Below, in pieces: positions 26,893-47,883 of a stretch of 64,000 nucleotides of DNA. The stretch is from positions 1 to 64,000 of the forward strand of contig DAOUTW010000002.1 in assembly GCA_030668485.1 (NCBI GenBank), given 5' to 3'. A program made the position numbers and the translations under genes. Below the pieces are notes generated by a model that saw only the letters and a list, made by a program, of their open reading frames with translations, did not search any database and was not told where the DNA came from. Source of the DNA: Candidatus Zixiibacteriota bacterium. Its GTDB lineage: Bacteria > Zixibacteria > MSB-5A5 > GN15 > JAAZOE01. Within the stretch, counting starts at the first letter, position 1, and each line of letters starts with the position of its first letter.

Positions 26893-26903
26893 AATTGAGC
26901 CGC

Positions 26904-27572: not shown

Positions 27573-27576
27573 AATA

Positions 27577-30528: not shown

Positions 30529-30557
30529 AAAAAGCAGGGGCTGCTATCCGCAACCCC
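30529..30557 (-). terminator. Terminator or attenuator between dsrP and the flavoenzyme gene
   Basis: On the minus strand an 8-bp stem (GGGGTTGC with GCAGCCCC, one G-U pair, 5-nt loop) is followed by TGCTTTTT, and the ATG of the next gene starts directly after the T-run. The stem also contains the purine-rich stretch that could serve as ribosome site. Confidence 0.7.
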
Positions 30558-30622
30558 TCCTCCTTGCGTAAATTCATAACCGGTTGAGCAATCGCTCAGG
30601 CCGGTATTTGTCTTCTTCTCTG

Positions 30623-31777
30623 TCAGGCCACGTTCTTTTTAACAGTCAAGGCGACCTTATAAAGAATCGTGACGATCAAAGCTCCAATACTGTATACGCC
30701 GACCGTGATTAAAAGCTCAGGTAGTGTCGGCATGTATTCATGGACAACACCCATGACATTCGGAATATAGCCGGTGACGATCATCGCCATCCCTTTATCG
30801 ATCCAGAGCGATACAAAAAGGGCGACACAGGCGAAAGCGAGGATACTCTCGTTCCGCCGGGTCTTCGGATTGAGCAAAAGGATCAACGTCACCACTGCCA
30901 GAATCGAGGAGACCCACATAAACGGCGCCAGGGCGTTTTTACCGTCCAGTCCCAAAAAGAGATATTCAAAATGCGCCATATGCTCCGGCATCGAACTATA
31001 AACGGCGGTGAAAACCTCCATCAGGACGAGAAAAACGTTGATGCACATGGCATAGGTCATGATCACGGCCAGTTTCTGCAAAGCTTCCTTGCTGACATCG
31101 AACGATGCCACCTTACGCAGGATCAGGCAAAGAATAATGATCAGGGCCGGACCGGCGGAAAAGGCCGAGGCCAGAAAACGAGGCGCCAGGACTGCCGTCA
31201 TCCAGAACGGGCGGGCGGCCAGACCGGAATAGAGAAAAGCGGTCACGGTGTGGATGCTGATCGCCCACGGTATCGAAAGGATAATCAGCGGCTTGACCCA
31301 TTTGGGGGGCGGGAGCTGTTTGCGTTCGGCTCCCAACACTGTCCAGCCGATAATCACATTGAGGACAAGGTAACCGAACAGGACGACCGTATCCCAGAAC
31401 ATGACCGAATTCGGCGATGCATATATAAAAACATTGGGGGTCCTGAACGGCATCCCCATATCGACAAAGATAAACAACATGCAGACAATGCAACTGCCGA
31501 CGGCGACGAATTCACCGAGAATGGTGATTTTTCCGAACGACTTGTTGTCGTGCAGGTAGTACGGTAAAACGAGCATAACCGCCGAGGCTGCGACACCAAC
31601 CATAAAGGTAAACTGGGCGATATAAAAACCCCAGGTGACATCGCGGCTGAGGCCGGTGATGGTCAGGCCGAGTTCGTACTGCCGGAACCAGGCCAGCGTC
31701 CCGACACCGATGGCGAAAGCCAGAAAGCCTACCCACGACCAGTATCTTTTATCTCCGCTTAGTGCCTTTTCTATCAT
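30623..31777 (-). CDS. dsrP: Sulfite reduction membrane complex subunit DsrP (NrfD-like)
   Basis: The ATG at 31777 is preferred because GAGG lies a few bases upstream and the protein then starts MIEKALSGDKRYW; the frame opens at 31819. About ten hydrophobic segments form an NrfD/PsrC-type quinone-binding membrane subunit without haem motifs. Together with DsrO it forms the quinone-reactive module of DsrMKJOP. It follows dsrO by 7 bp and closes the dsrMKJOP block. The downstream hairpin at 30529-30557 is the likely end of most transcripts. Confidence 0.94.
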   Translation of the reverse strand: MIEKALSGDKRYWSWVGFLAFAIGVGTLAWFRQYELGLTITGLSRDVTWGFYIAQFTFMVGVAASAVMLVLPYYLHDNKSFGKITILGEFVAVGSCIVCMLFIFVDMGMPFRTPNVFIYASPNSVMFWDTVVLFGYLVLNVIIGWTVLGAERKQLPPPKWVKPLIILSIPWAISIHTVTAFLYSGLAARPFWMTAVLAPRFLASAFSAGPALIIILCLILRKVASFDVSKEALQKLAVIMTYAMCINVFLVLMEVFTAVYSSMPEHMAHFEYLFLGLDGKNALAPFMWVSSILAVVTLILLLNPKTRRNESILAFACVALFVSLWIDKGMAMIVTGYIPNVMGVVHEYMPTLPELLITVGVYSIGALIVTILYKVALTVKKNVA

Positions 31778-31784
31778 AACTACC

Positions 31785-32570
31785 TCACAACAAGTAGTAA
31801 ACTTCAGGATGGGTACCAAGCCCGGGTTTGCGCCTGATCGAATAGCGCTCCCTAAGCAGTTCGCGAACCTTTGAGTTGGGATCTTCCAGATCGCCGAAAG
31901 CTATGGCATCGTTTTTGGCCGCCTCGACGCAGGCCGGAATCTGACCTTGGGCCAGCCGTTCCTCGCAGAAAGTACATTTTTCGACCACCCCCCGCATCCG
32001 GGTCGGGAATTCGGGAGTGGTTTCCTTGATAAACGGTCGAGGATCGCGCCAATTGAAGCTCCGCGATCCGTAGGGGCAGGCGGCGATGCAATAACGACAA
32101 CCGATACACCGATGCCAGTCCATCATAACGATTCCATCCGACTCACGTTTCCAGGTCGACCCTGTCGGGCAAACCCTGACACAGGGCGGATTATCGCAAT
32201 GATTGCACAGCAGAGGAACTTTGGTGTACTCGAATTTCTCGGGCAGATGTTCGATCTCCTGTTCGTGGAAAGCATGGCGAAAATCTTCTTCCCACATCCA
32301 TTTGATCTCATCTTTAGGATTATCGAACTCCGGCACATTGTGGACTCGATGACAGGCCGCGGCGCAATCTTTGATATTTTCATGGTCGCGGCATTTTTCC
32401 AGGTCGACAACCATCGCCCAGCGCTTGGCCGTAAGCGGGTTTTCTTGCGGAAGCTTTCCGGAAATTTCCGCAGGTATATCTTCCTGTGCCAGGATCCCAA
32501 TCGGTTTGGCGGCGACACCCAGTGCGGCCAGCCCTGTCAGTCTCAGAAACTTTCTTCTATCGACAGCCAT
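31785..32570 (-). CDS. dsrO: Sulfite reduction membrane complex subunit DsrO (periplasmic ferredoxin)
   Basis: The N-terminus carries a twin-arginine signal (DRRKFLRLTGLAALGVAA), so DsrO should be exported folded. Four-cluster-type cysteine motifs follow, including CNHCDNPPCVRVCPTGS, CIGCRYCIAACPYGSRSF and CTFCEERLAQGQIPACVEA. They match the ferredoxin-like subunits of the DMSO-reductase/Psr group. The ATG overlaps the dsrJ stop by one base (TAATG) and has GGAGGTG upstream, so it is translationally coupled. It carries electrons between DsrP and DsrJ at the outer membrane face. Confidence 0.95.
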   Translation of the reverse strand: MAVDRRKFLRLTGLAALGVAAKPIGILAQEDIPAEISGKLPQENPLTAKRWAMVVDLEKCRDHENIKDCAAACHRVHNVPEFDNPKDEIKWMWEEDFRHAFHEQEIEHLPEKFEYTKVPLLCNHCDNPPCVRVCPTGSTWKRESDGIVMMDWHRCIGCRYCIAACPYGSRSFNWRDPRPFIKETTPEFPTRMRGVVEKCTFCEERLAQGQIPACVEAAKNDAIAFGDLEDPNSKVRELLRERYSIRRKPGLGTHPEVYYLL

Positions 32571-32953
32571 TACTTGGTCACCTCCGGAATAATGTGACAG
32601 TCATAGCAGTACGGATCGACGCTCAAATAATCATGGCATTTGTCGCAAAAGTTCGCCTTGTTGGAATGGCAATCCAGACAGGTCATGGTCAGACTCATAT
32701 TGTATTTGGTCCCATCGGGAGCGGTATGAATTCTCTCGCCGTCCCGGACAACCTTGTCTCGCCATTCGTTGAGCAAATCCATATGCTCCGCCCGCATATA
32801 TTCGGTATCCGCCACACACTGATCGCCCTTGACCGCCTTTTCCAGCTCCGGCACATAGGTTGCCTTTCCGGTGGCCACGTTATACCAGGTGGGAAAAGTG
32901 AGCAGCGCGAGGAAGATAACCAATCCCACGATTACTTTTCCGGCATCATACAT
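32570..32953 (-). CDS. dsrJ: Sulfite reduction membrane complex subunit DsrJ (triheme cytochrome c)
   Basis: The ATG at 32953 overlaps the end of dsrK by 8 bp (ATGTATGA) and gives MYDAGKVIVGLVIFLALL, a membrane anchor or uncleaved signal. The frame opens at 32986. Three c-type haem motifs crowd the C-terminal part: CLDCH, CDKCH and CYDCH. This is the pattern of DsrJ, the periplasmic cytochrome of DsrMKJOP. In known complexes one haem has unusual His/Cys ligation, which cannot be checked here. Confidence 0.95.
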   Translation of the reverse strand: MYDAGKVIVGLVIFLALLTFPTWYNVATGKATYVPELEKAVKGDQCVADTEYMRAEHMDLLNEWRDKVVRDGERIHTAPDGTKYNMSLTMTCLDCHSNKANFCDKCHDYLSVDPYCYDCHIIPEVTK

Positions 32954-34565
32954 CGGCAGTATCCTCCTCTCCGGCCCACGGTTCACCGCGCAAATCGTTG
33001 TCGCGGTCTTTTTCTCCGGTCATTATCAAGGCGTTGCCGACCAGCTCATGAACGGCGCAAACCTCCGTTCCGGGTACCCAGTATTCCATCAGGGGAGGCA
33101 GGGTAGCCTTATCGATGGCGCAGACACAACTGAGCATATTGACGCCGTGCTTGTCCTTGACGTATTGGACAGCATTCGCGCGAGGGAAACCACCGCGCAT
33201 ACGCATTTCCATGTTTTCGTCGGTACCGATACCCGATCCGCTGCCGCAACAGAAGGTTTGCTCTCTGATGGTGTTCTCCGGCATTTCATAGAAATGATTG
33301 CAGGTCTTGTTGAGAATATAGCGCGGCTCATCAAGAAGACCCATAGCACGGGCAGGGTTGCAGGAATCGTGATAGGTAACTTTCCATTTATCGTTACGGC
33401 TGGGATCAAGCTTGATCTTGCCGTGCTTGATCAAATCGGCCGTGAATTCACAGATATGAACCATCTTGGTCGATTTGGCGTTTTCGAATTTCGTCCCGGT
33501 GATAGGGGAGACCGGCGCTTCGAGGAAATCGGCCGGGCCGTTCATGGTATCCATGTATTGATGCAGCACCCGCCACATATGGCCGCATTCGCCGCCGATA
33601 ATCCATTTCACGCCGAGCCGTTTAGCTTCGCTGTAAATCTTGACGTTGAGACGCTTCATCATTTCATTGGAATGAAACAACCCGAAATTGCCGCCCTCGG
33701 AGGCGAAAGAACTGAAGGTGTAATCCAGACCGATTTCATGAAACAGGGTCAGATAACCCATAAAGCCGTAGTAATGAGGATCGGCGAAATAGTCTGCCGA
33801 TGGCACCACAAAAAGAATTTCAGCGCCTTTCTTGTTTACCGGCGCATCAACCCGCACACCGGTGTTGTCCTCGATATCATCAATAGCGAAATCAACACTG
33901 TCCTGGAATCCGTGCGGCTGAATACCGAGGTGGTTGCCGGTCCGGAAGCAATTGGCTGCCGGAGTCGAGATCCAGTCGATATCAAGCCCGAGAAGATTGA
34001 GCAGTTCGCGGCCGATCATGGTAATCTCGGCAGTGTCGATACCATAAGGGCAGAAAACCGAACAACGGCGGCATTCGGTACACTGGTAGAAGTACAGGAA
34101 CCACTCCCGAATGACATCCTTGGTCAGTTTACGGCCGCCGGCGATACTGCCCAGGATTTTACCGGCGGTGGTGAAATCGTTGCGGTAAATCGAACGCAGC
34201 AGTTCGGCGCGGACTACCGGCATATTCTTGGGATCACCCGATCCGATAAAGAAATGGCATTTATCGGCGCAGGCTCCGCAGCGAACGCATATATCCATGA
34301 AAATCTTGAGGGAACGAAAACGTTTCAGACGGTCCCGAAAGCCTTCGAGGATAATTTCCTTCCAGTTGTCCGGCAGTTGCCAGTCATCGTCGGTCGGCTG
34401 CCACTTGCGGACGTTGGGAAGATCCAGGTATTTGGTGCTTTTCGGAATGGCGGCCCAGTTGAAGGTGCCTTTCCGTATTTCCACTTTGGGATCCATCCAA
34501 TCTTTCTTGGAAGGGGCGAAATCTATCTGAACCAGTTGTTCCGGTTTTTGCAGTTTGTCAGACAT
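32946..34565 (-). CDS. dsrK: Sulfite reduction membrane complex subunit DsrK (HdrD-like)
   Basis: The ATG at 34565 has AAGGAG 5 nt upstream; GTG at 34571 is in frame. DsrK is the cytoplasmic catalytic subunit thought to reduce the DsrC trisulfide or disulfide. Two ferredoxin motifs (CVRCGACADKCHFF, CTECRRCSVFCPYGID) lie at about 90-180. HdrD-type CCG motifs follow, including CGGE-type sequence GGECGHMWRVLHQ, CNPARAMGLL and TFCCGSGSGIG, which bind the noncubane-type 4Fe-4S cluster. It overlaps dsrM and dsrJ by a few bases, in the conserved order M-K-J-O-P. Confidence 0.96.
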   Translation of the reverse strand: MSDKLQKPEQLVQIDFAPSKKDWMDPKVEIRKGTFNWAAIPKSTKYLDLPNVRKWQPTDDDWQLPDNWKEIILEGFRDRLKRFRSLKIFMDICVRCGACADKCHFFIGSGDPKNMPVVRAELLRSIYRNDFTTAGKILGSIAGGRKLTKDVIREWFLYFYQCTECRRCSVFCPYGIDTAEITMIGRELLNLLGLDIDWISTPAANCFRTGNHLGIQPHGFQDSVDFAIDDIEDNTGVRVDAPVNKKGAEILFVVPSADYFADPHYYGFMGYLTLFHEIGLDYTFSSFASEGGNFGLFHSNEMMKRLNVKIYSEAKRLGVKWIIGGECGHMWRVLHQYMDTMNGPADFLEAPVSPITGTKFENAKSTKMVHICEFTADLIKHGKIKLDPSRNDKWKVTYHDSCNPARAMGLLDEPRYILNKTCNHFYEMPENTIREQTFCCGSGSGIGTDENMEMRMRGGFPRANAVQYVKDKHGVNMLSCVCAIDKATLPPLMEYWVPGTEVCAVHELVGNALIMTGEKDRDNDLRGEPWAGEEDTADV

Positions 34566-34567
34566 AA

Positions 34568-35560
34568 TCACTCCTTATCCAGCGGCATACCGGCATCCTT
34601 CATAACATCCCGGAATTCATCTTCATATTCCTCGTAGGTGTGAACCTTGACGTCAGGATTCCAGGGATTGATATGCCGGCGCATACGGTTGTTGTTGGCC
34701 AGGTTCCGGGTCGGACTCATGAAAACGCCGGCCATGTGGACCAGCTTGCTGAAGGGGAAGTAGGCGATTAAAACACTGACCATGAAAAGATGGACATAAA
34801 AAAGGAGACCGATACCTTCCGGAAGAATCGGATTGAAGCTCAAAAGCCCCGTGCCGAGTTTCTTCACCGCAACAATATCGACCTTATAGAAATAGCGCAT
34901 GAGAATTCCGGAAATGGAGATAGTCAGAATCAGAAGCAGCGGGAAATAGTCGGCGGCCAATGAGAAATACCGAAGCTGGGGCGACACCACCCGGCGGAAG
35001 AAGAGATACGATACCGACAGGAGAATGATAATATCGGTCATGTAGAGGAGAGGTAATCCTATTTGCAGAAGGCCGTCCAGATTTTGCATAATGGGAATGA
35101 AAAACGGCACCGGCTCGGCGAAATACTTGAAATGCCGAATGAATATCACCAGGAAGGAATAATGGAAGGCGAGTCCTCCCAGCCAGAGCCACTTACTCGA
35201 ACCGTAGGCCAGCCGGGGGCCGTTTTTGAGTTCTGTTTTGGTGTTGCGGAACAGCGACCGGAAAAGGAAAATTTCCAGAGCCATCCGTCCGAGAACCCCG
35301 ATCAGGTTATGGGGGTTGTCCAGTTTGTTCTGTTTGATCCACGGCAGCGAATTTTGCTGACCGCCGGTCGTGGGAATGCGAAACGGAACCGGCGAGCCGG
35401 CCCATTTCAAAACGCGCAGAACAATTCCAACCAGAAAGAGCACGATAGCGGCATATGGAAATATGACGCCGAAAAAATATTTGAGATTGGCCGCGCCCGC
35501 GCCAAGCATAACCAGCAGGATTAAGAGTATGACCGCCATCAGGGATGTCATGGCTTTCAT
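34568..35560 (-). CDS. dsrM: Sulfite reduction membrane complex subunit DsrM (haem b)
   Basis: DsrM is the NarI-like membrane cytochrome b that links the quinone pool to DsrK. The 330-residue protein has about six transmembrane segments and the haem/quinone histidine stretches LAFHYSFLVIFIRHFKYF and FYVHLFMVSVLIAYFPFSKLVH. The cytoplasmic tail ends in EYEDEFRDVMKDAG. It opens the dsrMKJOP block 63 bp after the RsbRD-like gene. Confidence 0.95.
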   Translation of the reverse strand: MKAMTSLMAVILLILLVMLGAGAANLKYFFGVIFPYAAIVLFLVGIVLRVLKWAGSPVPFRIPTTGGQQNSLPWIKQNKLDNPHNLIGVLGRMALEIFLFRSLFRNTKTELKNGPRLAYGSSKWLWLGGLAFHYSFLVIFIRHFKYFAEPVPFFIPIMQNLDGLLQIGLPLLYMTDIIILLSVSYLFFRRVVSPQLRYFSLAADYFPLLLILTISISGILMRYFYKVDIVAVKKLGTGLLSFNPILPEGIGLLFYVHLFMVSVLIAYFPFSKLVHMAGVFMSPTRNLANNNRMRRHINPWNPDVKVHTYEEYEDEFRDVMKDAGMPLDKE

Positions 35561-35623: not shown

Positions 35624-36136
35624 TTATGATCTATGTTTTCTTTTTTCAATATTCGGTCCGCCGAAAAGCGATGCCTGCCGTTTGATATCGTTACAACGTA
35701 CTTCAAAAAGCTTTTCCCGGCAGTGCATATAGCTGTCGAAGGCCATCAATGCCATGCCGTCAATTTTCGATTCGAGCGACAGAATATCCCTGGTGAGGTT
35801 TTCGTCATCCGGACTACGGTCCAGTTCTTCCCTGATAGCCGTCTTGAGGAAGAAAACATAGGCTACTGCCTGAGAGGCGGTGAAGTTCTGTACCGCCCGG
35901 ATTTTGTCGATCTGTTCGAGGGAGTTGACGATGGCCTCGGAATCGGCCTCATCGATCAAGCCGTTGAAAAGAGTTTCAATTTCTCGCAGGAAAGTCTGAC
36001 CAACCGGATTGCTGAAGCGGTTGGTGTTATTGAGCAAAAAGTTGGAGGAGTCGGCGGGATAGGTTTTCACTATTTGAGAAAGCCACCGATCAAGGATTGC
36101 TTTTCGGTTTTCTGTCAAAAAAGTTTTAAGGTCCAT
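35624..36136 (-). CDS. RsbRD N-terminal-domain protein next to dsrM
   Basis: The ATG at 36136 (MDLKTFLTENRKAILDRWL) is the usual kind of start for this family; GTG at 36151 would add five residues. The 170-residue all-helical protein resembles the RsbRD N-terminal (globin-fold-like, non-haem) sensor domain, with no kinase, STAS or DNA-binding part. Such a gene stands just upstream of dsrM in other sulfate reducers, as far as I recall. It lies between dsrC and dsrM, after a hairpin at 36185-36221. A signalling or assembly role is possible; none is established. Confidence 0.65.
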   Translation of the reverse strand: MDLKTFLTENRKAILDRWLSQIVKTYPADSSNFLLNNTNRFSNPVGQTFLREIETLFNGLIDEADSEAIVNSLEQIDKIRAVQNFTASQAVAYVFFLKTAIREELDRSPDDENLTRDILSLESKIDGMALMAFDSYMHCREKLFEVRCNDIKRQASLFGGPNIEKRKHRS

Positions 36137-36184
36137 ACCCAGATAAGGCACCCGTTAAATTGCAATCGTTACCGGATAAAATGC

Positions 36185-36241: not shown

Positions 36242-36559
36242 TTAAACGCAACCGGTCGGCTTGGCCAGGCCGGCAACCTTACAGGCGCCTTTGGCGGGGC
36301 CTGAAGGGAACAATTCATAGATTCTCTTCAGCGGAAAACCGCTTTCTTTACAAAGCTTCCGGATCATCGGGGCGATTCCGTACTTGGCAAAGTATTCGCG
36401 CAGGTAATGCACGATTTTCCAGTGTTCTTCGGTTAATTCGTTTACACCCTCAGTGCTTGCCAGACCCAGAGCGACGCGCTCATTCCACTGATCCGGCTCT
36501 TCCATAAATCCGTCTTCATCGACGTCAATCTTAATTTCTTCCCATTCAAAGATTGCCAT
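36242..36559 (-). CDS. dsrC: Sulfur carrier protein DsrC
   Basis: DsrC is the small protein that accepts the sulfite-derived sulfur from DsrAB as a trisulfide and is reduced by DsrMKJOP. The 105-residue protein ends in the mobile arm GACKVAGLAKPTGCV. C93 and C104 are the two conserved cysteines, exactly ten residues apart (CX10C), the feature that separates true DsrC from TusE/RspA-type relatives. It lies 53 bp after dsrL and has its own downstream hairpin. Confidence 0.96.
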   Translation of the reverse strand: MAIFEWEEIKIDVDEDGFMEEPDQWNERVALGLASTEGVNELTEEHWKIVHYLREYFAKYGIAPMIRKLCKESGFPLKRIYELFPSGPAKGACKVAGLAKPTGCV

Positions 36560-36612: not shown

Positions 36613-38280
36613 TTAGTGCATCTCTATAAAGCCACAAGGACAGTTTTCCTCGCATTTTTTGCAACCGTTGCAGAATTCCAGTTTGAATTTGTAGTCTTCG
36701 CCCTTAACCAACGGCTTGATCACAGCGTTATCCTGGCAATAGCTCCAGCAGTTGCCGCAATCGAAGCACTGGCCGCAACTCATACAGCGTTTCGACTCGG
36801 TGGTCGCTTCATCCTGCGACCAGGTGGAAACGATTTCGGCGTCGAGACTGCCGAGTCGCTGCTCCACCGGGATGGAATGAACCGCCATCCGCTCCTTGTG
36901 CTCATAATAGGCCAGAAACATTTTGCTATGATCGATGGTTGCCATTTCCTTTTTTTCCACCGTTTCGCCGGTGACCATGGTATGGATCGCCTCGGCCGCT
37001 TCACGGCCATGCGCGATAGCGGTGACGGCAATATCGAGATTGATATTGTCACCGCCGGAGTACACTCCTTCGATCTTGGTCTTATGCGTTTCATCGGTCT
37101 TGATCCAGTCCCGGCCTTCTATCAAACCCTCAAAACCGGTGAAATCCGGCTCCTGGCTGATGGCGGGGATAAGCATCGAAAACTCCAGATCAAAAACATC
37201 ACCATCGATCGGGACCGGGCGGCGACGACCCGAATCGTCGGGCTCACCCAATTCCATCCGCTGGCATTTCATGCCGGTGGCATGGTCGCTGTTGGTGGCG
37301 ATTGAAATCGGAGCGGCTAAGAACTCAATGTTGATACCCTCTTCGAGAGTGCCTTCGATTTCATCCTCATAAGCCGGCATTTCCTCCCGTGTCCGGCGGT
37401 ACAGAATGGTCACATCGGCGCCGAGACGTTTGGAAACACGGGCCGCATCGATGGCGGTATCGCCGCCGCCGATCACGACCACCTTATCGCCGACATCGAC
37501 ATTTTCGCCGACATTGACTTTGTGTAAAAAATCCGTGCCGACGATGACGTTGTCAGCTTCCTCGCCGTCGACACGAAGCTTGTAACCTTTATGAGCGCCA
37601 AGGCCGACGAAGATGGCCTTGTATTCTTTGCGAAGGTCATCGAGCGGGACATCCTTGCCGACCATTGTGTTCACTTTCAATTCGACACCCATGTCGACTA
37701 TCCTCTGCATTTCGGCGTCAAGGATATCCTGCGGCAGGCGATAATCGGGAATCCCATAACGAAGCATACCGCCAGATTTGGGGAAGGCCTCGAAAACCGT
37801 CACGGGATAACCGCGGCGAGCCAGATGATAGGCACATGACATGCCGGCCGGACCCGATCCGATGATGGCGACCTTCTCAGGCCGGATTTGGTCGGTCAGT
37901 TTTTGCGGGACCAGCTTTTTTTCCAGGGCAAAATCGCCGAGGTACCGTTCGAAACTGTTGATTCCGACCGCACCGTCAACCTGTATCCGGTTACAATCCG
38001 TCTCACAAGGATGAGGGCAGACGCGACCGCAGACTGAAGGGAAGGGAGTTGTTTCCAGAAATATCCGAGCCGCCTCTTCAAAAGCCTGATCCGGCGTTTT
38101 CCCGTAATCTTCCGCCTTGGAAACAGTCATCAGCGCCTTGCGGATATGGTTATGATTGGGACACTTGATTCCGCAGGGCGGCTTCTTTGATACATATTTT
38201 GGGCGAAGCGACGAGGTTTCGACTCCCGAACCGCCGGAACTGGATCGAAGTCCTCGTTTTTTCTTCTTTTTCTTTGCCAT
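36613..38280 (-). CDS. dsrL: DsrL-like NAD(P)H:acceptor oxidoreductase (iron-sulfur flavoprotein)
   Basis: The protein resembles the small glutamate synthase subunit with an extra C-terminal ferredoxin part. A lysine-rich N-terminus precedes the Fe-S motif CGRVCPHPCETDC (about 85-97). The FAD motif VAIIGSGPAGMSCAYHLARR (about 135-155) and the NAD(P)H motif VVVIGGGDTAIDAARVSKR with YRRTREEMPA follow. C-terminal clusters are CMSCGQCFDCGNCWSYC and CNGCKKCEENCPCG. At 555 residues it is shorter than the best known DsrL of sulfur oxidisers (about 650). It lies between dsrN and dsrC. In oxidisers DsrL links DsrAB to NAD; here, with dsrD present, it would more likely donate electrons to DsrAB. Confidence 0.85.
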   Translation of the reverse strand: MAKKKKKKRGLRSSSGGSGVETSSLRPKYVSKKPPCGIKCPNHNHIRKALMTVSKAEDYGKTPDQAFEEAARIFLETTPFPSVCGRVCPHPCETDCNRIQVDGAVGINSFERYLGDFALEKKLVPQKLTDQIRPEKVAIIGSGPAGMSCAYHLARRGYPVTVFEAFPKSGGMLRYGIPDYRLPQDILDAEMQRIVDMGVELKVNTMVGKDVPLDDLRKEYKAIFVGLGAHKGYKLRVDGEEADNVIVGTDFLHKVNVGENVDVGDKVVVIGGGDTAIDAARVSKRLGADVTILYRRTREEMPAYEDEIEGTLEEGINIEFLAAPISIATNSDHATGMKCQRMELGEPDDSGRRRPVPIDGDVFDLEFSMLIPAISQEPDFTGFEGLIEGRDWIKTDETHKTKIEGVYSGGDNINLDIAVTAIAHGREAAEAIHTMVTGETVEKKEMATIDHSKMFLAYYEHKERMAVHSIPVEQRLGSLDAEIVSTWSQDEATTESKRCMSCGQCFDCGNCWSYCQDNAVIKPLVKGEDYKFKLEFCNGCKKCEENCPCGFIEMH

Positions 38281-38392
38281 GAAGTGACTCTTTCGTTGAG
38301 TTTTATCCGACAGTTTTTGTCCGTCGGCGGCACTTGTTTTCCTCTTTTTATATCTTACTCTCCACCGGATCGTGTCCGGCCTGTGTTATCAA

Positions 38393-39835
38393 TCAGGTCG
38401 ATTCGACGCTGCATACTTCAGGATGATCGCATCCCCCGGAAGAGAGACACTGTGTATCCGAGCGGAACTGTTTCGCGGCAGCGATCATAGCGGCGGCCCA
38501 GTTCTTGACGCCATCGGCATGGATGTGAGTATAACAGGCGAGGGTTCGATTCGACATTAAACCGTCACGACCTCCGCCCAGTCCCACACCGGTTTGTACT
38601 GCCATACACGACAACGATTCCGGTATATCGGAAACGACTCCCGAGTAATGAAACTCATGACCGGTGATGTTTGTCTCCGTTTTGAAAAACGGATTGGACC
38701 GATCCACCTGCAGTCTGGAATAACCATGACCAACCGGTTTGACCTGCATCTCCAGATCGACCGGAAACACTCCGGCCATCGGGTAGAGAGTATTATTCCA
38801 TTTCAAAGAACGGCAGAGGTAAATCAAACCTCCGCATTCGGCATAAATCGGCAGGCCTTTGAAAGCCGCCGACTTTACCGATTCCATCAGCGAACGATTC
38901 TCGACCAGGCGGTCGGCATGCGTTTCCGGAAAACCGCCGCCGATATATAAAGCGTCGATTTCCGGAAGAGATGAATCGGCCAGTGATGAAACCGGAACTA
39001 ATTCGGCGCCGCTTCGCTGCAGCGCTTCCAGATTTTCCGGGTAATAAAAAGTGAAAACGGAATCGTCAAAATATCCGACCTTTACTTGCGCGTTAACCGT
39101 TTCCTGCGGCCTGATTTCTCCCGCATCGATCTCCGGAGCATCTTCGGCGATCTTGATGATGCGATCGATATCGAGATAATCGGCGGCTATCTGCGCCAGT
39201 CTGGTCTCGACTTCCGCTCGCGCCGGAAATTCGTCCGGAGTCACCAGACCAAGATGACGGCCCGGCAGCAGCGAGGCATCATCGCCCAGTTTCGGGATAG
39301 CTCCCAAAACCGGCAGACCGCAAGATGATTCCACCGCTTCACGGATAACTTTTTCATGCCTCGCACCGGCGACTTTATTGAGAATCACACCGGCGATATT
39401 TAACTCCGGATCAAATACCTGACAGCCCTTCACCAGAGCGGCCACCGTTTGCGTCGCTTTGGTGACATTGACCACCAATAAAAGAGGGGCCTGCAAAAGT
39501 TTTGCAAGCCCCGCGGTGCTATGTAAACCTGTCAGATCTTTTTCGTCAAAAAGGCCGCGATTGCCTTCGATAACCGAAATATCGGTTCGGGAGGCATGGC
39601 AGGCAAAAGACTTCAGCACATCATCGGAATCAACCAGATAAGTATCCAGATTCCGGCAGGTTTTGCCGGAAACGGTACTCAGCCAGGCAGGATCGATATA
39701 ATCGGGCCCCTTCTTAAAAGGAGCGACTTTCAATCCCTTCCGGCGTAATGCCGCCAGCACACTGAGGCTGACGATGGTTTTTCCCGAATCGCCGGAAAGA
39801 CCGGCAATTACGAGCCGAGGTGTCTTCAATTTCAT
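38393..39835 (-). CDS. dsrN: Cobyrinate a,c-diamide synthase-like siroheme amidase DsrN
   Basis: The ATG at 39835 (MKLKTPRLVIAGLSGDSGKT) starts just before the P-loop GLSGDSGKT; GTG at 39844 is in frame. The N-terminal dethiobiotin-synthetase-like ATPase half is followed by a class I glutamine amidotransferase domain with CGGLIYLC near residue 325-335. This CbiA-type enzyme, when located in dsr operons, is held to amidate siroheme to siroamide for DsrAB. It lies 19 bp downstream of dsrD and 113 bp before dsrL. Confidence 0.92.
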   Translation of the reverse strand: MKLKTPRLVIAGLSGDSGKTIVSLSVLAALRRKGLKVAPFKKGPDYIDPAWLSTVSGKTCRNLDTYLVDSDDVLKSFACHASRTDISVIEGNRGLFDEKDLTGLHSTAGLAKLLQAPLLLVVNVTKATQTVAALVKGCQVFDPELNIAGVILNKVAGARHEKVIREAVESSCGLPVLGAIPKLGDDASLLPGRHLGLVTPDEFPARAEVETRLAQIAADYLDIDRIIKIAEDAPEIDAGEIRPQETVNAQVKVGYFDDSVFTFYYPENLEALQRSGAELVPVSSLADSSLPEIDALYIGGGFPETHADRLVENRSLMESVKSAAFKGLPIYAECGGLIYLCRSLKWNNTLYPMAGVFPVDLEMQVKPVGHGYSRLQVDRSNPFFKTETNITGHEFHYSGVVSDIPESLSCMAVQTGVGLGGGRDGLMSNRTLACYTHIHADGVKNWAAAMIAAAKQFRSDTQCLSSGGCDHPEVCSVEST

Positions 39836-39863
39836 AGAATCCACATTTCAAACGCCGAGACGA

Positions 39864-40109
39864 TTAATCGTTGGCGGCGCCTTCCCTATGTGGGAGCTCT
39901 ATAAAACTTCCGCCAAAATAGGTGTAAACGCAGCGACCGTTGTTAATCAATTCTTTGATCGCCATCTTACAGAGCTTCTTGTCAACTTCTTCACCGTAGA
40001 TCTGAATCATTGCCTTAATCAGATCCATCGGTTTGAGTTTCTTGACGCCCTGGGCCTCTTTGACCATGTTGAACATGGCGTCGGCAACTTCTTCTATACT
40101 CTTAGCCAC
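39864..40109 (-). CDS. dsrD: Dissimilatory sulfite reductase-associated protein DsrD
   Basis: An 81-residue winged-helix-like protein starting with GTG at 40109 and AAAGGA upstream. The helical start (SIEEVADAMFNMVKE) and the strand-rich end (NGRCVYTYFGGSFIELP) fit DsrD, reported to stimulate DsrAB as an allosteric activator. DsrD is found almost only in organisms using the pathway reductively or for disproportionation, so it is the best marker of direction here. It stands 11 bp after dsrB. Confidence 0.93.
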   Translation of the reverse strand: MAKSIEEVADAMFNMVKEAQGVKKLKPMDLIKAMIQIYGEEVDKKLCKMAIKELINNGRCVYTYFGGSFIELPHREGAAND

Positions 40110-40120
40110 GTTATTGTCCT

Positions 40121-41203
40121 TTAAAAAGTTATATGCGTTGAACGTTTGAACGTCAAACCGGCATGCTTAAAGTCGTCGATATGCTCACTCTGGAACTCGA
40201 CACCGGTCATTTTGAAGAACTTGGGCCATCCGATACGTTCAATCCACTCACCCAGCCGTTCGTACTTGTTGGCATTAGCGGCCCATATTTCGACGATCTG
40301 CCGGATCGCCGTGGTCACTTCGGGCCAGCGCGGCGGGTTGTTGGGAATATAAGGGATGAACAGTTTCGAGAACATCGGCTCGTGACGGGCATTGGATACC
40401 TTGCCGCCGACCCAGATCGAAACACCGTCGTTGACCGGATCATTAAGCGGCATCGCCGGACAGACAGTGTAACAGTTGGCGCAGAACATACAACGGTCTT
40501 CAATAACTTCAACCGAAGGAAGGCCGTCGACCGTCGCCGGCCGGATGGCCGCCGTCGGGCACGAGGCGCTAACATTCGGAATTTCGCACATCTTCTTGAC
40601 CTTGGTATGATCGATTACCGGAGGACGACGGTGCACGCCGAGAATAGCGATATCCGAGCAGTGGACCGCGCCGCACATATTGAGGCAGCATGCCAGGGCG
40701 ATACGAAGCTTGCCCGGAAGTTTGGTCTCTTCAAAATACTCAATCAAATCGTCCATGACACACTTGACGATACCCGAAGCGTCGGTCGCCGCCGAATGGC
40801 AGTGGACCCAGCCCTGAGTGTGAACGATACTTGTGATGGCATTGCCGATACCGCCGATCGGATGTCCGATCTTGGCCAGATCAGCGATCAGGGGATCGAC
40901 GTTTTCTGATTTGGACAGGAGAAATTCGGCGTTGTGACGGCTGGTGAAACGCATGTAGCCATCGCAATATTTGTCGGCCAAATCACAAAACATTCTGATC
41001 TTGTCAATACTTACTAACCTGCCGGAGGCAGCCCTGACCGTAAACAGCTTGGCGCCGCTTTCGCTGACGTGAACCAGAACTCCCGGCTTAAGAAGTTCAT
41101 GGTATTTCCATTTGCCGTAATTTTCCTTGATTATCGGCGGCAAAAACTGCTCATAATGCGGCGGGCCGTAATCTGTCCGTCTTTCCTGCATTGCTTCAGC
41201 CAT
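40121..41203 (-). CDS. dsrB: Dissimilatory sulfite reductase beta subunit
   Basis: DsrB carries the catalytic siroheme-4Fe-4S centre that reduces sulfite to the sulfur bound by DsrC. The 360-residue protein shows the coupled cluster motif [14 protein letters not shown] (about 165-180), followed by the second cysteine motif [12 protein letters not shown]. The inserted ferredoxin domain is [15 protein letters not shown]. Length is normal. It follows dsrA by 47 bp and precedes dsrD by 11 bp. Confidence 0.97.
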
Positions 41204-41250: not shown

Positions 41251-42450
41251 TTATTTGTCGTCTTCATCGTCATCCTCATAGTCTTCGTAGAAAACGTAAG
41301 GATTCTCACGCGGATGGGCAACCATCTCAGGAATCGGCTCGACTTCGATCTCGTCGAGGAACGCGCTCAAACCGACCCGCTGGATAAACTCGCCTACACG
41401 TTCGCGGTTCTTGCCTTCTTCGCACCACAAGTCCCAAATCTTATCAACCAGATCTTTGAGCTCAGTGTAGGGAGGCTCGATCTTTATGAAAGGAACGAGG
41501 ATTGAGGAAAGAAACGCGCCCTCGATGATCGGCGCCTTGGAACCTATGAGAAGCATTGCGCCGCGATCCTTACCCGGACGAAGCGCTTTCGGCATAACAT
41601 TGATACAATGCATACAATGACGACAGAAACTGTCATCGATGGTGATCTCTTTGCCATCCCAATTAATACATTTGCCGGGACAGTTGTTGACCACATCGGA
41701 CTGAATATCCATGCCCTTTTCGGCATATTCGGTGACGGCCGCTTTGTCAATCTGGATCTCGTCACGCCAGATGCCGATGATCGACAGGTCGGAGCGGGCA
41801 ATTGAGGCCACGCAGTCGTTGGGACATCCTGACATTTTGAATTTGAACTTGTACGGGAAGGCCGGACGATGCAGCTCATCCTGGTAATGCATAGTCAGGT
41901 CATGAGTCAGAGCCATGGTGTCATAACAGGCCCATTCGCAACGCGCCATTCCGCAGCAACAACTGGGCGTCCGCAAATCGGATCCGGAACCGCCAATATC
42001 GAAATCAATCTTCTGCAGTTCGTCGAAAACCGGCTCGAGCTCCTCGGTTCTGCAACCCAGCAGAATAATATCGCCGGTGGAACCGTGCATGTTGGTCAAA
42101 CCGGAACCGTGCTTCTCCCAGATGTCGCAAATTTTGCGGAGGGAATCGGAAGTGTAAAACCAGCCGGCCGGCTGATTGATACGCATGGTGTGGAAATGCG
42201 AAATACCGGGGTATTCTTTGGGCAGAGCCGAATATCTGCCGATAACGCCGCCGCCATATCCCATAACGCCGACGATGCCACCGTGCTTCCAGTAGCCGAT
42301 CTTTTCTCTGTAGGATTGCTCCAATTGACCGAGAAGGTCAGCCGCCATAGGGCTTCTTTTGGCCGCCATTTTGATTTCGGTAACAAAACTTGGCCATTTA
42401 CCCTTCTCCAACTCGTCGAGTTTGGGGGTGCTTGGGAGTTGATCCGCCAT
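41251..42450 (-). CDS. dsrA: Dissimilatory sulfite reductase alpha subunit
   Basis: DsrA is the structural partner of DsrB in the alpha2-beta2 sulfite reductase. Its coupled-cluster motif is [17 protein letters not shown] and its partner motif [12 protein letters not shown]. The inserted ferredoxin domain shows [10 protein letters not shown] and [12 protein letters not shown]. At 399 residues it is a little shorter than many homologues and ends in an acidic tail ([12 protein letters not shown]). A promoter TTGACT-N17-TAAAAT lies about 155-180 bp upstream with a palindrome in front of it, and the preceding qmoAB unit ends in a terminator. The dsr operon therefore starts here. Confidence 0.97.
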
Positions 42451-42603
42451 TGTAACTCCTTCTCTACGGGTGAAATAGTATATATTTAAATCTTTCTATT
42501 GTGCGATACTCATGCAAGCCTGCCTGCAAAACAGATAGATGTTCAACTTATTCAATATTTATTAAAGATGCCGACCCAGGCATCTTACCTCTTATTGATT
42601 AAT

Positions 42604-42632
42604 ATTTTACATCTTTGGCAAAGTGAAGTCAA
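42604..42632 (-). promoter_or_regulatory. dsrA promoter TTGACT-N17-TAAAAT
   Basis: On the minus strand TTGACT (42632-42627) and TAAAAT (42609-42604) stand 17 bp apart. The palindrome at 42640-42657 ends 7 bp before the -35 box. Confidence 0.65.
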
Positions 42633-42639
42633 GTAGATT

Positions 42640-42657
42640 TTGTGAAAAATTTCATTA
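42640..42657 (-). promoter_or_regulatory. Palindromic operator upstream of dsrA, proximal
   Basis: The plus strand reads TTGTGAAAAATTTCATTA: a perfect TTGTGA half and a degenerate second half. Its centre lies about 51 bp upstream of the expected transcription start. Confidence 0.5.
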
Positions 42658-42815
42658 TCTTTGGTTTTGGGAAAATAAATTTCGCAGCCTGATCAACCTT
42701 GTAAGTATTGGCCTATCCTGTTATGTAGTAGTTGATTATGCTGATTAATAGCTCTCCCGCAAACGCCCCGGAAGAAATTTTCTGGTTAAGCGACTTATCA
42801 ATTATCTCTGCTTTA

Positions 42816-42833
42816 ATGTGAATTTAGTCACAA
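42816..42833 (-). promoter_or_regulatory. Palindromic operator upstream of dsrA, distal
   Basis: The plus strand reads ATGTGAATTTAGTCACAA, matching TTGTGA-N6-TCACAA at 11 of 12 fixed positions. It lies 20 bp downstream of the qmoB terminator and about 200 bp upstream of the dsrA promoter; no clear -35/-10 pair overlaps it. Confidence 0.55.
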
Positions 42834-42852
42834 TGCCAGCCGAATTCGACAT

Positions 42853-42885
42853 ATAAAAAAACCCCCCGCCGAAAGCGAGGGGTTT
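42853..42885 (-). terminator. Rho-independent terminator of qmoAB
   Basis: On the minus strand a G+C-rich stem (CCCCTCGC with GCGGGGGG, one U-G pair) flanked by AAA/TTT is followed by a run of seven T. It lies 36 bp after the qmoB stop and separates qmoAB from dsrA. Confidence 0.85.
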
Positions 42886-42920
42886 GGCTAGTTACAGATA
42901 CAGTCTCATGAAAGTGATAT

Positions 42921-45167
42921 TTACATCCCTTTGTACGGATTAGGGCCGACGGTTTCGATCGTCTCCAGAAAATCATCGAGAATTTTCGGGATTTTATGAT
43001 AATCGGCGATCGACAACTCATGCATCTCAACCCGTTCCTCTTCCAGAACCAACTGCTGCAATTTCTCGCGGACATTACCCATCCGGTAATCGGCCAACTC
43101 ACTGCCGCGAATGAAATGGCACTGATAATCGTCACCTTTTTGGCAGCCGATCAGGATTACGCCGTCAAAACCCTGCGATAAGGCGTCACTGACCCAAACC
43201 GTGTTCATCGAACCCAGACACCGCAAGGGTATGATTCGGATCATTGAATTGTACTGCAAACGCTTCAGTCCGACCATATCGACCGATGGCATGGCGTCGT
43301 TTTCGCAAACAAAGGCCAGGATACGCGGCTTTTCCTCGAACTCATCAGGAACCTCGACCGCCTTGATCATCGATGAAATCATATGCACGCTGTAGTTCTT
43401 GAAGGAAACGATTCGTTCAGGGCAAGCGCCCAGGCATATGCCACAGCGACGGCAGCGGAGCGGGTTGGGAAGTGGTGTTCCCTTTTCGTCCTCATCCAGC
43501 GCTCCAAACGGGCATTCTTCGGTACACCGTTTACACTGGGTACATTTCTGCATGAAGAAATCGGGATAGGTTAAATCTCCTGCCCGGGGATGCAAGGTGC
43601 GCCCCTCGGCCATCGCATTAACCGCCTGGATAGCCTTCATGGCTGCGCCGTAGGCATCGTTGGCGGAAGAGGCCAAATCCATCGGCGACCGCACCGGCCC
43701 GGCGGCATAAATACCGGTCCGCAGCGTCTCGTACGGGAAGCAGATAAAATGCGAATCGGGGAAGCCGTATTTCAAGGTCGGCAGATCGGTCCCCTGACGG
43801 TAAGTCAGATTGATAATTTTGGCGCCCTTCTCGGCTGATTCCGCTTCCTTTTTGCCGTCATCGTCCGCTTTGTCATCGGCCTTCTCTTCGGTCGCGGCGT
43901 CAGTTTCTGCGGTATCCGTCCCCGGATTGTCTTCTACCTGGGTGGTCGGAACCATGCCCGCAGCCAGCACCAGCATGTCAGCCTCGACCTGGATATCCTC
44001 GCCCAGTAATGTCTCCTCGACATCGATCAGAATTTTGCCGTTTTCAGAAGCTACCCTGGCGATTTCACCTTTGGTCATAAAGATGGCATCGTCATCCTGG
44101 ACATTGGCATAGAACATTTCGAACTGAGCCGGCGAACGAATATCTTTATATATAACATAAATCTTCGCATCGGGATATTGCTCGCGCACATACATCGCCT
44201 GCTTCAAGGAAACGCGGCAGCATACCGCCGAACAATAGGGGAGATGATCCTGATCGCGCGATCCGGCGCATTGAATAAAGGCGATGCTTTCGATCGGCTT
44301 GCCGTCCGAAGGCCGCTTGATATCGCCGGCCGAAGCCATTTCTTCCATCTGGATATTGGTGACAATATCAGGCGATGAGCCATAACCGAGATATGACAAC
44401 TTTTCGGCCTTATATGGCTTCCATCCGGTGGCCTGAATAATCGACCCGACCGTGAACTGTCCGCCGCCGTTGCCGTTCTGTAGCGACACTTCGAATTGAC
44501 CCGGCTGTCCGGCCGTCTTCTCGACCTCGGAAGACAGATGAACAGTGATATTTTCGTCAGCTTCGATTTCGGCAACCAGTTCCTTATAACCGGAATCTTC
44601 CAGATCCTGATAGGGTGGATGTTTGGGAAAGACTTTTTTGAACTTGGTGGCCCAGCCGCCGAGTTGCGCTTCCTTTTCGACCAGGGCAACCTTATGACCG
44701 GCGGTCGCAGCAGCTTTGGCAGCCGTCATACCGGTGATCCCGCCGCCGATAACCATGATATCCTTGCTGGTTTCTTCGATAAACGGTTCCGGCGGTTCCA
44801 TCACGCCCAACTTGGCGATGCTCATCCGAATCTGATCCTCGGCCAGCATCTGGGTATCTTCGTCATCGGGCGCATGGCACCAGGCAACCTGTTCGCGCAG
44901 ATTGGCGCGATCGGCCATAACCTCTTTGCCAAATTCAAACAGTTCCGGGAAAATACGTTGTGAACAGGCGCCGACGCAAACCCGGTTGAGGCCTTCCTTC
45001 TCGACATCGTCCCGAATAATTTGGACTCCTTCAGGACTGCACAGGGCATCGTGAGCTTTGCTTACCGCCGCTCCTTTTTCGGTAGCCGCTTCCAGAACTT
45101 TATCGACATCGAATGTTTTGCCGATGTCACAACCTTTACAGATGTACACTCCGATTTTCGTATCCAT
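42921..45167 (-). CDS. qmoB: Quinone-interacting membrane-bound oxidoreductase subunit B
   Basis: QmoB is an HdrA-like flavoprotein fused to an MvhD-like C-terminal domain. The FAD motif IMVIGGGITGMTAAKAAATAG lies near 140-160, AGSRDQDHLPYCSAVCC is typical of HdrA-like proteins, and two ferredoxin motifs (CTQCKRCTEECPFG, CRRCGICLGACPE) precede the MvhD-like end with CENDAMPS and CLGSMNTV. A linker of about 40 residues rich in Asp, Glu, Lys and Ala (about 410-447) interrupts the core. The start overlaps GGAGGTAG at the qmoA stop. With QmoA and QmoC it should pass electrons to AprBA. Confidence 0.95.
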   Translation of the reverse strand: MDTKIGVYICKGCDIGKTFDVDKVLEAATEKGAAVSKAHDALCSPEGVQIIRDDVEKEGLNRVCVGACSQRIFPELFEFGKEVMADRANLREQVAWCHAPDDEDTQMLAEDQIRMSIAKLGVMEPPEPFIEETSKDIMVIGGGITGMTAAKAAATAGHKVALVEKEAQLGGWATKFKKVFPKHPPYQDLEDSGYKELVAEIEADENITVHLSSEVEKTAGQPGQFEVSLQNGNGGGQFTVGSIIQATGWKPYKAEKLSYLGYGSSPDIVTNIQMEEMASAGDIKRPSDGKPIESIAFIQCAGSRDQDHLPYCSAVCCRVSLKQAMYVREQYPDAKIYVIYKDIRSPAQFEMFYANVQDDDAIFMTKGEIARVASENGKILIDVEETLLGEDIQVEADMLVLAAGMVPTTQVEDNPGTDTAETDAATEEKADDKADDDGKKEAESAEKGAKIINLTYRQGTDLPTLKYGFPDSHFICFPYETLRTGIYAAGPVRSPMDLASSANDAYGAAMKAIQAVNAMAEGRTLHPRAGDLTYPDFFMQKCTQCKRCTEECPFGALDEDEKGTPLPNPLRCRRCGICLGACPERIVSFKNYSVHMISSMIKAVEVPDEFEEKPRILAFVCENDAMPSVDMVGLKRLQYNSMIRIIPLRCLGSMNTVWVSDALSQGFDGVILIGCQKGDDYQCHFIRGSELADYRMGNVREKLQQLVLEEERVEMHELSIADYHKIPKILDDFLETIETVGPNPYKGM

Positions 45168-45172
45168 GGCTT

Positions 45173-46450
45173 CTACCTCCTCGTCCCGATGTTTAGGGCT
45201 TTCAGGGCCGCTCCGGTCGCATCCTGAACGGTGGCGGAGACATCATAAGGTCGCGCCGCAACGCCGGCTCCGACAATACCGTTGGTCGTATCGGGGGCGA
45301 TAAACCCGAAATCGTCGAGCGGGGTGTCAAGAGGAGGCGCATCGTCTACTGTATTGGGAACCATGCCGGTGGCCAGGACCGCCATATCAACTTCGGTCTT
45401 GATGATCTCACCGGTCAGAGTGTTTTCAGCTTCTAAAATCACATTCCCGTTTTCCGGGTTTTCCGTTATCTTGGCCACTTTACCGCGATGGAAATGGAAT
45501 TTCTCATCTTCCTGCATCTTGACATAGAAATCCTCCAGCCGTCCCGGCGAACGGATATCGATGTAAAATATGTGCACCTCAGCATCAGGATACTGCGCCC
45601 GCACATAGGTCGCTTCTTTCATTGAGGCCATGCAGCAGATCGCCGAACAGTAGGGGAGATGATTTTCGTCGCGCGAACCGGCGCATTGCACGAATCCGAC
45701 CGAGGTTACTTCTTTCTGATCCGAAGGACGCACAATCTTGCCTTCAGTCGGGCCGTTGTCAGCCGCCAACCGCTCCATGATGACATTGGTTACCACGTTT
45801 TTGATCTTGCCGAAACCGAGATTTTCGATTTTGGTCGCGTCATAAGGTTTCCAGCCGGTGGCCCAGACAATCCCGCCGACTTTGGCGGTAATCGTCACCG
45901 GCTCCATATCGAGCTCGATCGCATCGTATGGGCAGGCTTCGACCACTTTTTTCATCGACTCGTCTTTGACAAATTCCGGATCGATCACATAGCGCGGGGG
46001 ATAGGCCATCAGATGCGGCAGATAGATAGCTTTGGTTTTATTCAGTCCGTAGTTTAGATCATTGTCGCGTTCGAGTTCGCAGACCTTTTCGCAGTCGCCG
46101 CAGCAGGTGCATTTTTCGTTCACATATCGGGGGCTGAGCTTGATTTTTACCTCGAAATCTCCCGGCGTGCCGGAAATCGATTCCACTTCCGCCAGAGTCA
46201 ACACCCGGATATTGGGGTTGCTCCTGATCCGTCTGAGGTTGATTTCTACGCCGCAGGTGGGAGGGCACAGTTTCGGGAAGTACTGATATATGGTCACTAC
46301 CCTTCCTCCCAGGGAGGGGAGTTTTTCGATCAGTATGGCTTTTTTCCCGGTCTCGGCCGTCTCAATGGCGCTGGTCATCCCGGCGGTTCCGCCGCCGACA
46401 ACCAGCAGATCGGCTGAAATCTGGCTTTCAAGAGGATCAATATTCGCCAT
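45173..46450 (-). CDS. qmoA: Quinone-interacting membrane-bound oxidoreductase subunit A
   Basis: QmoA is a soluble HdrA-like FAD protein of the Qmo complex. The FAD motif is LLVVGGGTAGMTSAIETAE and the HdrA-like stretches are IYQYFPKLCPPTCGVEINLRR and AGSRDENHLPYCSAICC. A 4Fe-4S motif CTCCGDCEKVCELE is also seen. At 425 residues it is close to the family norm. It leads the two-gene qmoAB unit, 5 bp before qmoB. A promoter and two palindromes of the sulfate-reduction type lie upstream. Confidence 0.95.
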   Translation of the reverse strand: MANIDPLESQISADLLVVGGGTAGMTSAIETAETGKKAILIEKLPSLGGRVVTIYQYFPKLCPPTCGVEINLRRIRSNPNIRVLTLAEVESISGTPGDFEVKIKLSPRYVNEKCTCCGDCEKVCELERDNDLNYGLNKTKAIYLPHLMAYPPRYVIDPEFVKDESMKKVVEACPYDAIELDMEPVTITAKVGGIVWATGWKPYDATKIENLGFGKIKNVVTNVIMERLAADNGPTEGKIVRPSDQKEVTSVGFVQCAGSRDENHLPYCSAICCMASMKEATYVRAQYPDAEVHIFYIDIRSPGRLEDFYVKMQEDEKFHFHRGKVAKITENPENGNVILEAENTLTGEIIKTEVDMAVLATGMVPNTVDDAPPLDTPLDDFGFIAPDTTNGIVGAGVAARPYDVSATVQDATGAALKALNIGTRR

Positions 46451-46965: not shown

Positions 46966-47883
46966 TCAGATGCCAAACTTTTTCGTGTCGACCCACTTCA
47001 TACTCAACAACGACCAGAAGTCCAAAGCCAGTTTGCTCTTCACATAGTCATAGGGCAACCACCCGTAGCCGTTGTCTCCCCAGCTTGTACCCCACGAATT
47101 ACGGATGAGTAGCGCGCCGGTCGTAATCCTACCGCACCTCGTGTTCTTGATCTTCTTCTTATCGTCATAGCCGACGGCAACCACGGCATGGCCCCAGATC
47201 GCTCGTTCACCGGGACACGGATAGGGGATTCCACCCTTCACATCGCTCGATTTGGACGTTGGGAATCCCCAAAAGCCGAACATTGAGGGAATCTTGGCTA
47301 ACAGGTAATACTTAACCCTTTTCAGAACTACGTCTCCAGGGATATTGGCTCCCTGGGGGTCATGACAGAAATAACGCAGAGCTTCGTAGTTGTCTGCCAC
47401 GGAATAAACGAAGCATGGGGGCTCTTCGTCAAAGTCAGGGTCGGCATCTGTGTACGGCCAGTATTTCTCGTTCGGAACCCCGCAGAGCGCCAGGGCTCCC
47501 ATGGTATTTCTTAGCCATGCTCCCACGTCCCCGGTTACTTGCATCAGGTTGCGAGTTGTTTTGTATACAAAGAGACGAGAACCCTCGATATGCGTGCCGA
47601 ATGCCCGGCGTTGGAAGTACTCAACGACCCCTACTCCTGCCTGTGCCGTACAGGATCCCAGGCCCCCCTGATTCTCAATGGGTGAGCAGTAAGCCCTGAG
47701 ATCAACGGTTGACGGTAGCGCCTTCAGTTTTTTGCCTTTGCCAAATCCCAGCTTTTTGGCCATTTCATCAATCTTTGGTTCAGCCTCCGTAAAATCTCGC
47801 AGATCCGGCAAGGGCGGTAGCCACCCGGTGCCCACGGTACAGCCAGTCTCTGGAATTTCTACTGCTTGGTAGGTCGAATTCAT
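46966..47883 (-). CDS. Papain-like (C1A) cysteine protease without signal peptide
   Basis: The ATG at 47883 has AAGGAGGAG upstream and gives 305 residues; the frame opens at 47931. The papain triad is complete: C78 in ENQGGLGSCTAQAG, H232 in WGHAVVAVGYDD and N262 in LIRNSWGTSWGDNGYGWLP, with Q72 for the oxyanion hole. There is no signal peptide or membrane segment, and the N-terminal 55 residues could act as a short pro-part. A likely promoter lies at 48142-48170. It stands alone between qmoA and the methyltransferase cluster. The substrate is unknown; a cytoplasmic role or leaderless export are both possible. Confidence 0.88.
   Translation of the reverse strand: MNSTYQAVEIPETGCTVGTGWLPPLPDLRDFTEAEPKIDEMAKKLGFGKGKKLKALPSTVDLRAYCSPIENQGGLGSCTAQAGVGVVEYFQRRAFGTHIEGSRLFVYKTTRNLMQVTGDVGAWLRNTMGALALCGVPNEKYWPYTDADPDFDEEPPCFVYSVADNYEALRYFCHDPQGANIPGDVVLKRVKYYLLAKIPSMFGFWGFPTSKSSDVKGGIPYPCPGERAIWGHAVVAVGYDDKKKIKNTRCGRITTGALLIRNSWGTSWGDNGYGWLPYDYVKSKLALDFWSLLSMKWVDTKKFGI

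Follow-up and report, generated by a model that had tools for sequence, protein, structure and literature searches.

A probable reductive dsr operon pairing DsrL-2C with a divergent DsrD in Candidatus Zixiibacteriota

The dsr genes of a Candidatus Zixiibacteriota bacterium very probably form a conventional bacterial reductive operon of the DsrL-2C kind, carried by a sulfate-reducing member of this phylum. The operon lies in a stretch of 64,000 nucleotides (contig DAOUTW010000002.1, positions 1 to 64,000; hereafter the window) from an assembly of 4.5 Mb that is 99.95% complete and in which a search for 16S gave no match. DsrL is best known from sulfur oxidisers and DsrD is typical of sulfate reducers; both are encoded here, next to a reductive-type DsrAB. 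The gene content, gene order, DsrL subtype, signature residues and conservation described below are direct observations. The locus represents a clean, phylum-conserved case of DsrL-2 combined with DsrD, and adds to the evidence that dsrL alone is no marker of sulfur oxidation.

Organisation of the locus

Reading along the minus strand from 46450 to 30623, the genes follow each other in the order qmoA, qmoB, dsrA, dsrB, dsrD, dsrN, dsrL, dsrC, an RsbRD_N-domain gene, dsrM, dsrK, dsrJ, dsrO and dsrP. The initial annotation, which had placed dsrL and dsrD in one dsr operon with dsrC between dsrL and dsrM, is confirmed on both points; we additionally find that the RsbRD_N gene lies between dsrC and dsrM, and that dsrN is the gene separating dsrD from dsrL. 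Genes for sirohaem/haem biosynthesis (25348-28797) lie between the sat-apr/qmoC-like region and the dsr operon. The features and the evidence for each are as follows.

45173-46450, minus strand: qmoA (HdrA-like); partial match to NF040770, and synteny
42921-45167, minus strand: qmoB (HdrA-like with FlpD domain); partial match to NF040770, PF02662, and synteny
42859-42885, minus strand: terminator-like hairpin between qmoB and dsrA; 12-pair stem and T tract, consensus match only
41251-42450, minus strand: dsrA, reductive type; TIGR02064 (565 bits) and tree
40121-41203, minus strand: dsrB; TIGR02066 (504 bits)
39864-40109, minus strand: dsrD, divergent winged helix of 81 aa with wing YTYFGGS; fold, position and profile comparison, missed by PF08679
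38393-39844, minus strand: dsrN, cobyrinate a,c-diamide synthase family (sirohaem amidation); TIGR00379 (438 bits) and synteny
36613-38280, minus strand: dsrL, reductive DsrL-2 (2C), predicted NADPH:acceptor oxidoreductase of 555 aa; domains, tree, S23xxR26, Y294-R295-R296, Fe-S ligands and NfnB/GltD-like fold
36242-36559, minus strand: dsrC, both C-terminal cysteines present (CKVAGLAKPTGCV); TIGR03342/PF04358 and sequence
35624-36151, minus strand: RsbRD_N-domain gene; PF14361, located where dsrT has been published (PMC10504309)
34568-35560, minus strand: dsrM; NF038037 (539 bits)
32946-34571, minus strand: dsrK; Fer4 domains and conserved synteny
32570-32986, minus strand: dsrJ; position and conserved synteny, without a Pfam match
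31785-32570, minus strand: dsrO; Fer4_11 and synteny
30623-31819, minus strand: dsrP, the 5' end of its ORF overlapping dsrO; position and synteny
30536-30558, minus strand: terminator-like hairpin 3' of dsrP; 9-pair stem and T tract, consensus match only
27577-28797: hemA-like gene; sequence and synteny only
26904-27572: cysG, N-terminal part
25348-26892: cobA-hemD fusion
23139-24323, plus strand: putative qmoC-like gene; HdrC-type Fer4 domain (Fer4_8) followed by a hydrophobic, membrane-type half
21121-22356, minus strand: sat; TIGR00339 (369 bits)
20623-21060, minus strand: aprB; TIGR02060 (209 bits)
18714-20600, minus strand: aprA; TIGR02061 (910 bits)

Its position makes the RsbRD_N gene a candidate dsrT. 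The qmoC-like gene is not adjacent to qmoAB and is encoded on the other strand; the name is proposed from its Fer4 domain and its hydrophobic C-terminal half. Two further minus-strand genes were noted in the window: one for a cysteine peptidase of the papain family (C1), located upstream of qmoA (46966-47931), and one for a 628-aa protein with a dockerin type I domain at its C-terminus (14711-16597).

Since terminator-like hairpins are found after qmoB and after dsrP, the sequence suggests that dsrA to dsrP constitute a single transcription unit. The gap between qmoB and dsrA (42451-42920, about 470 bases) has a similar length in many relatives and contains, besides the hairpin at 42885-42859, a promoter-like site; sites of this kind did not exceed the frequency seen in shuffled sequence. 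Another terminator-like hairpin, with 12 pairs, lies within the dsrN coding region (39512-39486, minus strand). An Rfam scan of the region from 10 to 50 kb, including the qmoB-dsrA gap, gave zero matches.

Proposed electron flow and its direction

By analogy with characterised homologues, Sat, AprAB and Qmo would convert sulfate to sulfite, which DsrAB would reduce onto DsrC. The divergent DsrD would activate or stimulate DsrAB, and DsrL-2 would pass electrons from NADPH through FAD and its [4Fe-4S] clusters to DsrAB. DsrMKJOP would reduce the DsrC trisulfide with membrane electrons, sulfide being released and DsrC recycled. It is these homologues that suggest the NADPH specificity, the contact between DsrL and DsrAB, the activation by DsrD and the direction of flow. 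The cytosolic path from NAD(P)H to DsrAB in addition to DsrMKJOP, which the initial annotation had regarded as possible, is supported in its NADPH version, which is the expected role of a DsrL-2 and is in line with published biochemistry (PMC7596348); DaDsrL-2 is NADP(H)-specific (PMC7596348).

The flexible or disproportionating metabolism raised in the same annotation, on the other hand, found no specific support. In the DsrA tree, the window protein falls on the reductive side (100/99) and the oxidative clade is separate (100/99). DsrL-2C beside a reductive DsrAB has been proposed as an indicator of reduction (PMC10591310), and lineages with DsrL-2 and DsrD, Zixibacteria included, have been assigned to reduction (PMC10591310, PMC11406059). 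Candidatus Zixibacteria has also been placed in the group that retains DsrD and DsrL and has lost DsrEFH (PMC11406059). Nothing found here points to disproportionation or to a switch of direction, neither of which sequence alone decides.

We nevertheless considered that the operon might serve a reversible or disproportionating metabolism, in which DsrL-2 would move electrons from DsrAB to NADP+ during the oxidation of sulfur compounds. DsrL enzymes do run both ways in vitro, and Desulfurella amilsii, a DsrL-2 carrier, can disproportionate sulfur (PMC7596348); moreover, Dsr pathways with reductive-type genes can run backwards, as they do in Desulfurivibrio and the cable bacteria. Published genomes thought able to switch, however, have a second, oxidative dsrABL set, whereas the genome studied here gave a single dsrA match, and its search for the DsrE family, and with it DsrEFH, returned no match at the cut-off and one sub-threshold match. 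Both DsrA and DsrL belong to reductive clades, the latter to a reductive subclade, and DsrD is present. A reversible operation of the operon thus appears unlikely, and we favour a conventional reductive operon.

As a separate observation, a Thermoleophilia contig (L089, 1816-10511) bears dsrAB-dsrL twice in tandem: one set is reductive and includes dsrD, the other is oxidative, an arrangement like that published for SURF19.

A divergent DsrD downstream of dsrB

DsrD lies directly 3' of dsrB in the loci inspected. Its product in the window, a protein of 81 residues, was not matched by the Pfam model of DsrD (PF08679), so that its identity had to be shown by other means, and we file it as a DsrD homologue and not as a PF08679 member. 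When run on 18 genomes, the model reached its cut-off in Desulforhopalus only (98 bits), a carrier of the classical DsrD; among Desulfobacterota it was passed by 65 of 148 genomes, the classical DsrD of this phylum mostly scoring 85-110 bits. Because the model is blind to the form found here, annotation that uses only PF08679 would mistakenly record DsrD as missing in these lineages, and the direction of sulfur metabolism could be misjudged.

The fold, the position of the gene and the profile comparisons all speak for homology, and we regard the small gene after dsrB as a divergent dsrD. Its product is strongly conserved among relatives in the alignment and is predicted to adopt a winged helix (pLDDT 90.8), which matches the DsrD structure 1wq2 with a TM-score of 0.77 by target length and an rmsd of 2.4. 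A search of PDB sequences with DsrD, both as single sequence and as alignment, gave nothing above noise, and 1wq2 is not the top structural match by E-value, other winged helices ranking higher. As many winged-helix proteins fit the predicted fold about equally by this measure and PF08679 fails to match, the product might be taken for an unrelated winged-helix protein such as a DNA-binding regulator. We consider this very improbable: profiles of the window-type and the classical DsrD find each other, if weakly, at the same operon position, and their profile-profile comparison gives a probability of 91.6% (P 8e-7). The order dsrA-dsrB-dsrD-dsrN is, moreover, common to the classical Desulfobacterota operons, the match to 1wq2 argues in the same direction, and Hausmann et al. 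recognised the acidobacterial DsrD through conserved hydrophobic residues (PMC6018796).

The divergent DsrD carries the wing motif YTYFGGS, where the classical protein has YWSSGSTT. DsrD of the GGS type occurs beside dsrB in 6 of the 148 Desulfobacterota genomes without a strong DsrL match, which rules out a strict tie between this type and DsrL. The converse held: in the loci examined, which had been fetched through DsrL, those with DsrL-2C and a DsrD always had the GGS-wing form. A tentative and rather doubtful idea is that the GGS-wing DsrD, being the form present in every DsrL-2C operon examined that has a DsrD, represents a distinct functional subtype, which would contact DsrAB in a manner unlike the classical WSSGST wing and may let DsrD and DsrL act on the same DsrAB.

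Identity and subtype of DsrL

Judged by its sequence, the window protein is a true DsrL and belongs to the reductive subtype DsrL-2C, the 2C assignment being based on its membership of the reductive clade. Its best NCBIfam match is PRK12771 (574 bits, over the cut-off) and its domains follow in the order Fer4_20, Pyr_redox_2 and C-terminal Fer4. The gene is complete, resides in a dsrAB-bearing genome and has dsrN and dsrC as neighbours, with no linkage to pyruvate/ketoisovalerate oxidoreductase genes; in these respects, as in domain content and order, it agrees with the published definition of DsrL (PMC7596348). The linker before the C-terminal ferredoxin domain comprises about 60-75 residues by domain borders (from about 425-438 to 499), the published figure being about 100 (PMC7596348); linkers shorter than about 100 residues have been described outside DsrL-1A.

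The phylogeny recommended in the initial annotation, run on 59 sequences, places the window protein with its phylum relatives inside the reductive DsrL clade (branch 100/96), among DsrL from genomes that possess both reductive DsrAB and DsrD, and not with glutamate synthase small subunits. The same clade holds sequences of Acidobacteriota, Calditrichota, Bacteroidota/Ignavibacteriota, Actinomycetota and Myxococcota. The opposite, oxidative side of the tree includes Nitrospirae RBG_19FT_COMBO_42_15, Desulforhopalus IMCC35007, Magnetococcales and Gammaproteobacteria, and related NAD(P)-binding proteins from outside the Dsr system are set apart on their own branch (100/99). The protein might instead be taken for a plain small subunit of glutamate synthase, or for an Nfn-like oxidoreductase, that happens to lie in the operon, as these share its superfamily and include its nearest solved structures. 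This reading is extremely improbable and is rejected on tree and domains: the protein groups with DsrL apart from the non-Dsr branch, has a C-terminal two-cluster ferredoxin domain that is absent from GltD and is only 33-40% identical to the other homologues of the same genome, and the order dsrN-dsrL-dsrC is conserved across the phylum. The closest solved folds, namely chains of Nfn (NfnB), StnABC and GltD, are those expected for this superfamily; our structure model of DsrL (pLDDT 76) can be relied on in its core only, with both ends below 50.

Signature residues of the protein include S23xxR26, in which Arg replaces the fourth Cys of the distal cluster, the remaining 4Fe-4S ligands all being present. 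At the position published as Cys42, 57 of 59 reductive DsrL have Arg and all 12 oxidative ones have Cys, the signature being Ser-x-x-Arg in the former group and Ser-x-x-Cys in the latter; the other Fe-S ligands are conserved. The NAD(P) domain carries a YRR motif (Y294-R295-R296), which has been linked to NADP(H) use in the DsrL-2 of Desulfurella amilsii (PMC7596348). As a marker dividing reductive from oxidative DsrL, YRR was dropped, because oxidative rows of the alignment carry it too, in disagreement with the published statement that DsrL-1 lacks YRR. These rows were chosen by similarity to the window family, may be atypical and could reflect biased sampling; YRR was therefore not used alone, and the assignment of NADPH leans on homology to DaDsrL-2. 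In DsrL proteins from gammaproteobacterial and Magnetococcal oxidative loci (L098, L101, L104-L108, L111), a long insertion interrupts the NAD(P) domain, and YRR is nevertheless present.

Conservation across the phylum

At the thresholds used, dsrA, dsrD and dsrL were each detected in 45 of 110 genomes of the phylum. The sets overlap pairwise in no fewer than 43 genomes, and 42 genomes belong to all three; the genomes outside them have none of the three genes. Among the exceptions are a contig that begins at dsrL (G023), a short dsrL fragment only (G029) and a match to a frame of 1247 residues that is not DsrL (G039). The DsrL of Candidatus Zixiibacteriota bin38 (CP070742.1) is 69% identical to that of the window. 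Gene order is identical in most of the relatives' loci inspected, and this recurrence excludes a chance arrangement.

Comparison with known systems

Although the pairing of DsrL-2 with DsrD is real, earlier publications already describe it, for Zixibacteria by name and for several other phyla. The closest counterpart is the combination of DsrL-2C, DsrD and reductive DsrAB (PMC10591310; group three of PMC11406059), which has the same gene set, DsrL subtype and absence of DsrEFH, and among whose carriers Candidatus Zixibacteria is named. Compared with the systems of PMC10591310, no functional difference was apparent; the window genes differ in sequence and in their precise order, dsrN being located here between dsrD and dsrL.

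The biochemically characterised DsrL-2 of Desulfurella amilsii (PMC7596348) shares the YRR motif, comes from an organism with reductive DsrAB and is NADP(H)-specific. That organism differs in being described as one that reduces and disproportionates sulfur and thiosulfate but does not reduce sulfate. The classical DsrD of Desulfobacterota (PF08679) is, like the protein described here, a small winged helix whose gene lies between dsrB and dsrN, immediately after the former, and differs in its wing (YWSSGSTT there, YTYFGGS here), the Pfam model missing the latter.

Finally, peatland Acidobacteria (PMC6018796) likewise have a dsrC-dsrL pair downstream of dsrAB, together with dsrD, dsrN and dsrMKJOP. 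They belong to a different phylum, and in the acidobacterial loci compared DsrL is 48-59% and DsrD 47-61% identical.
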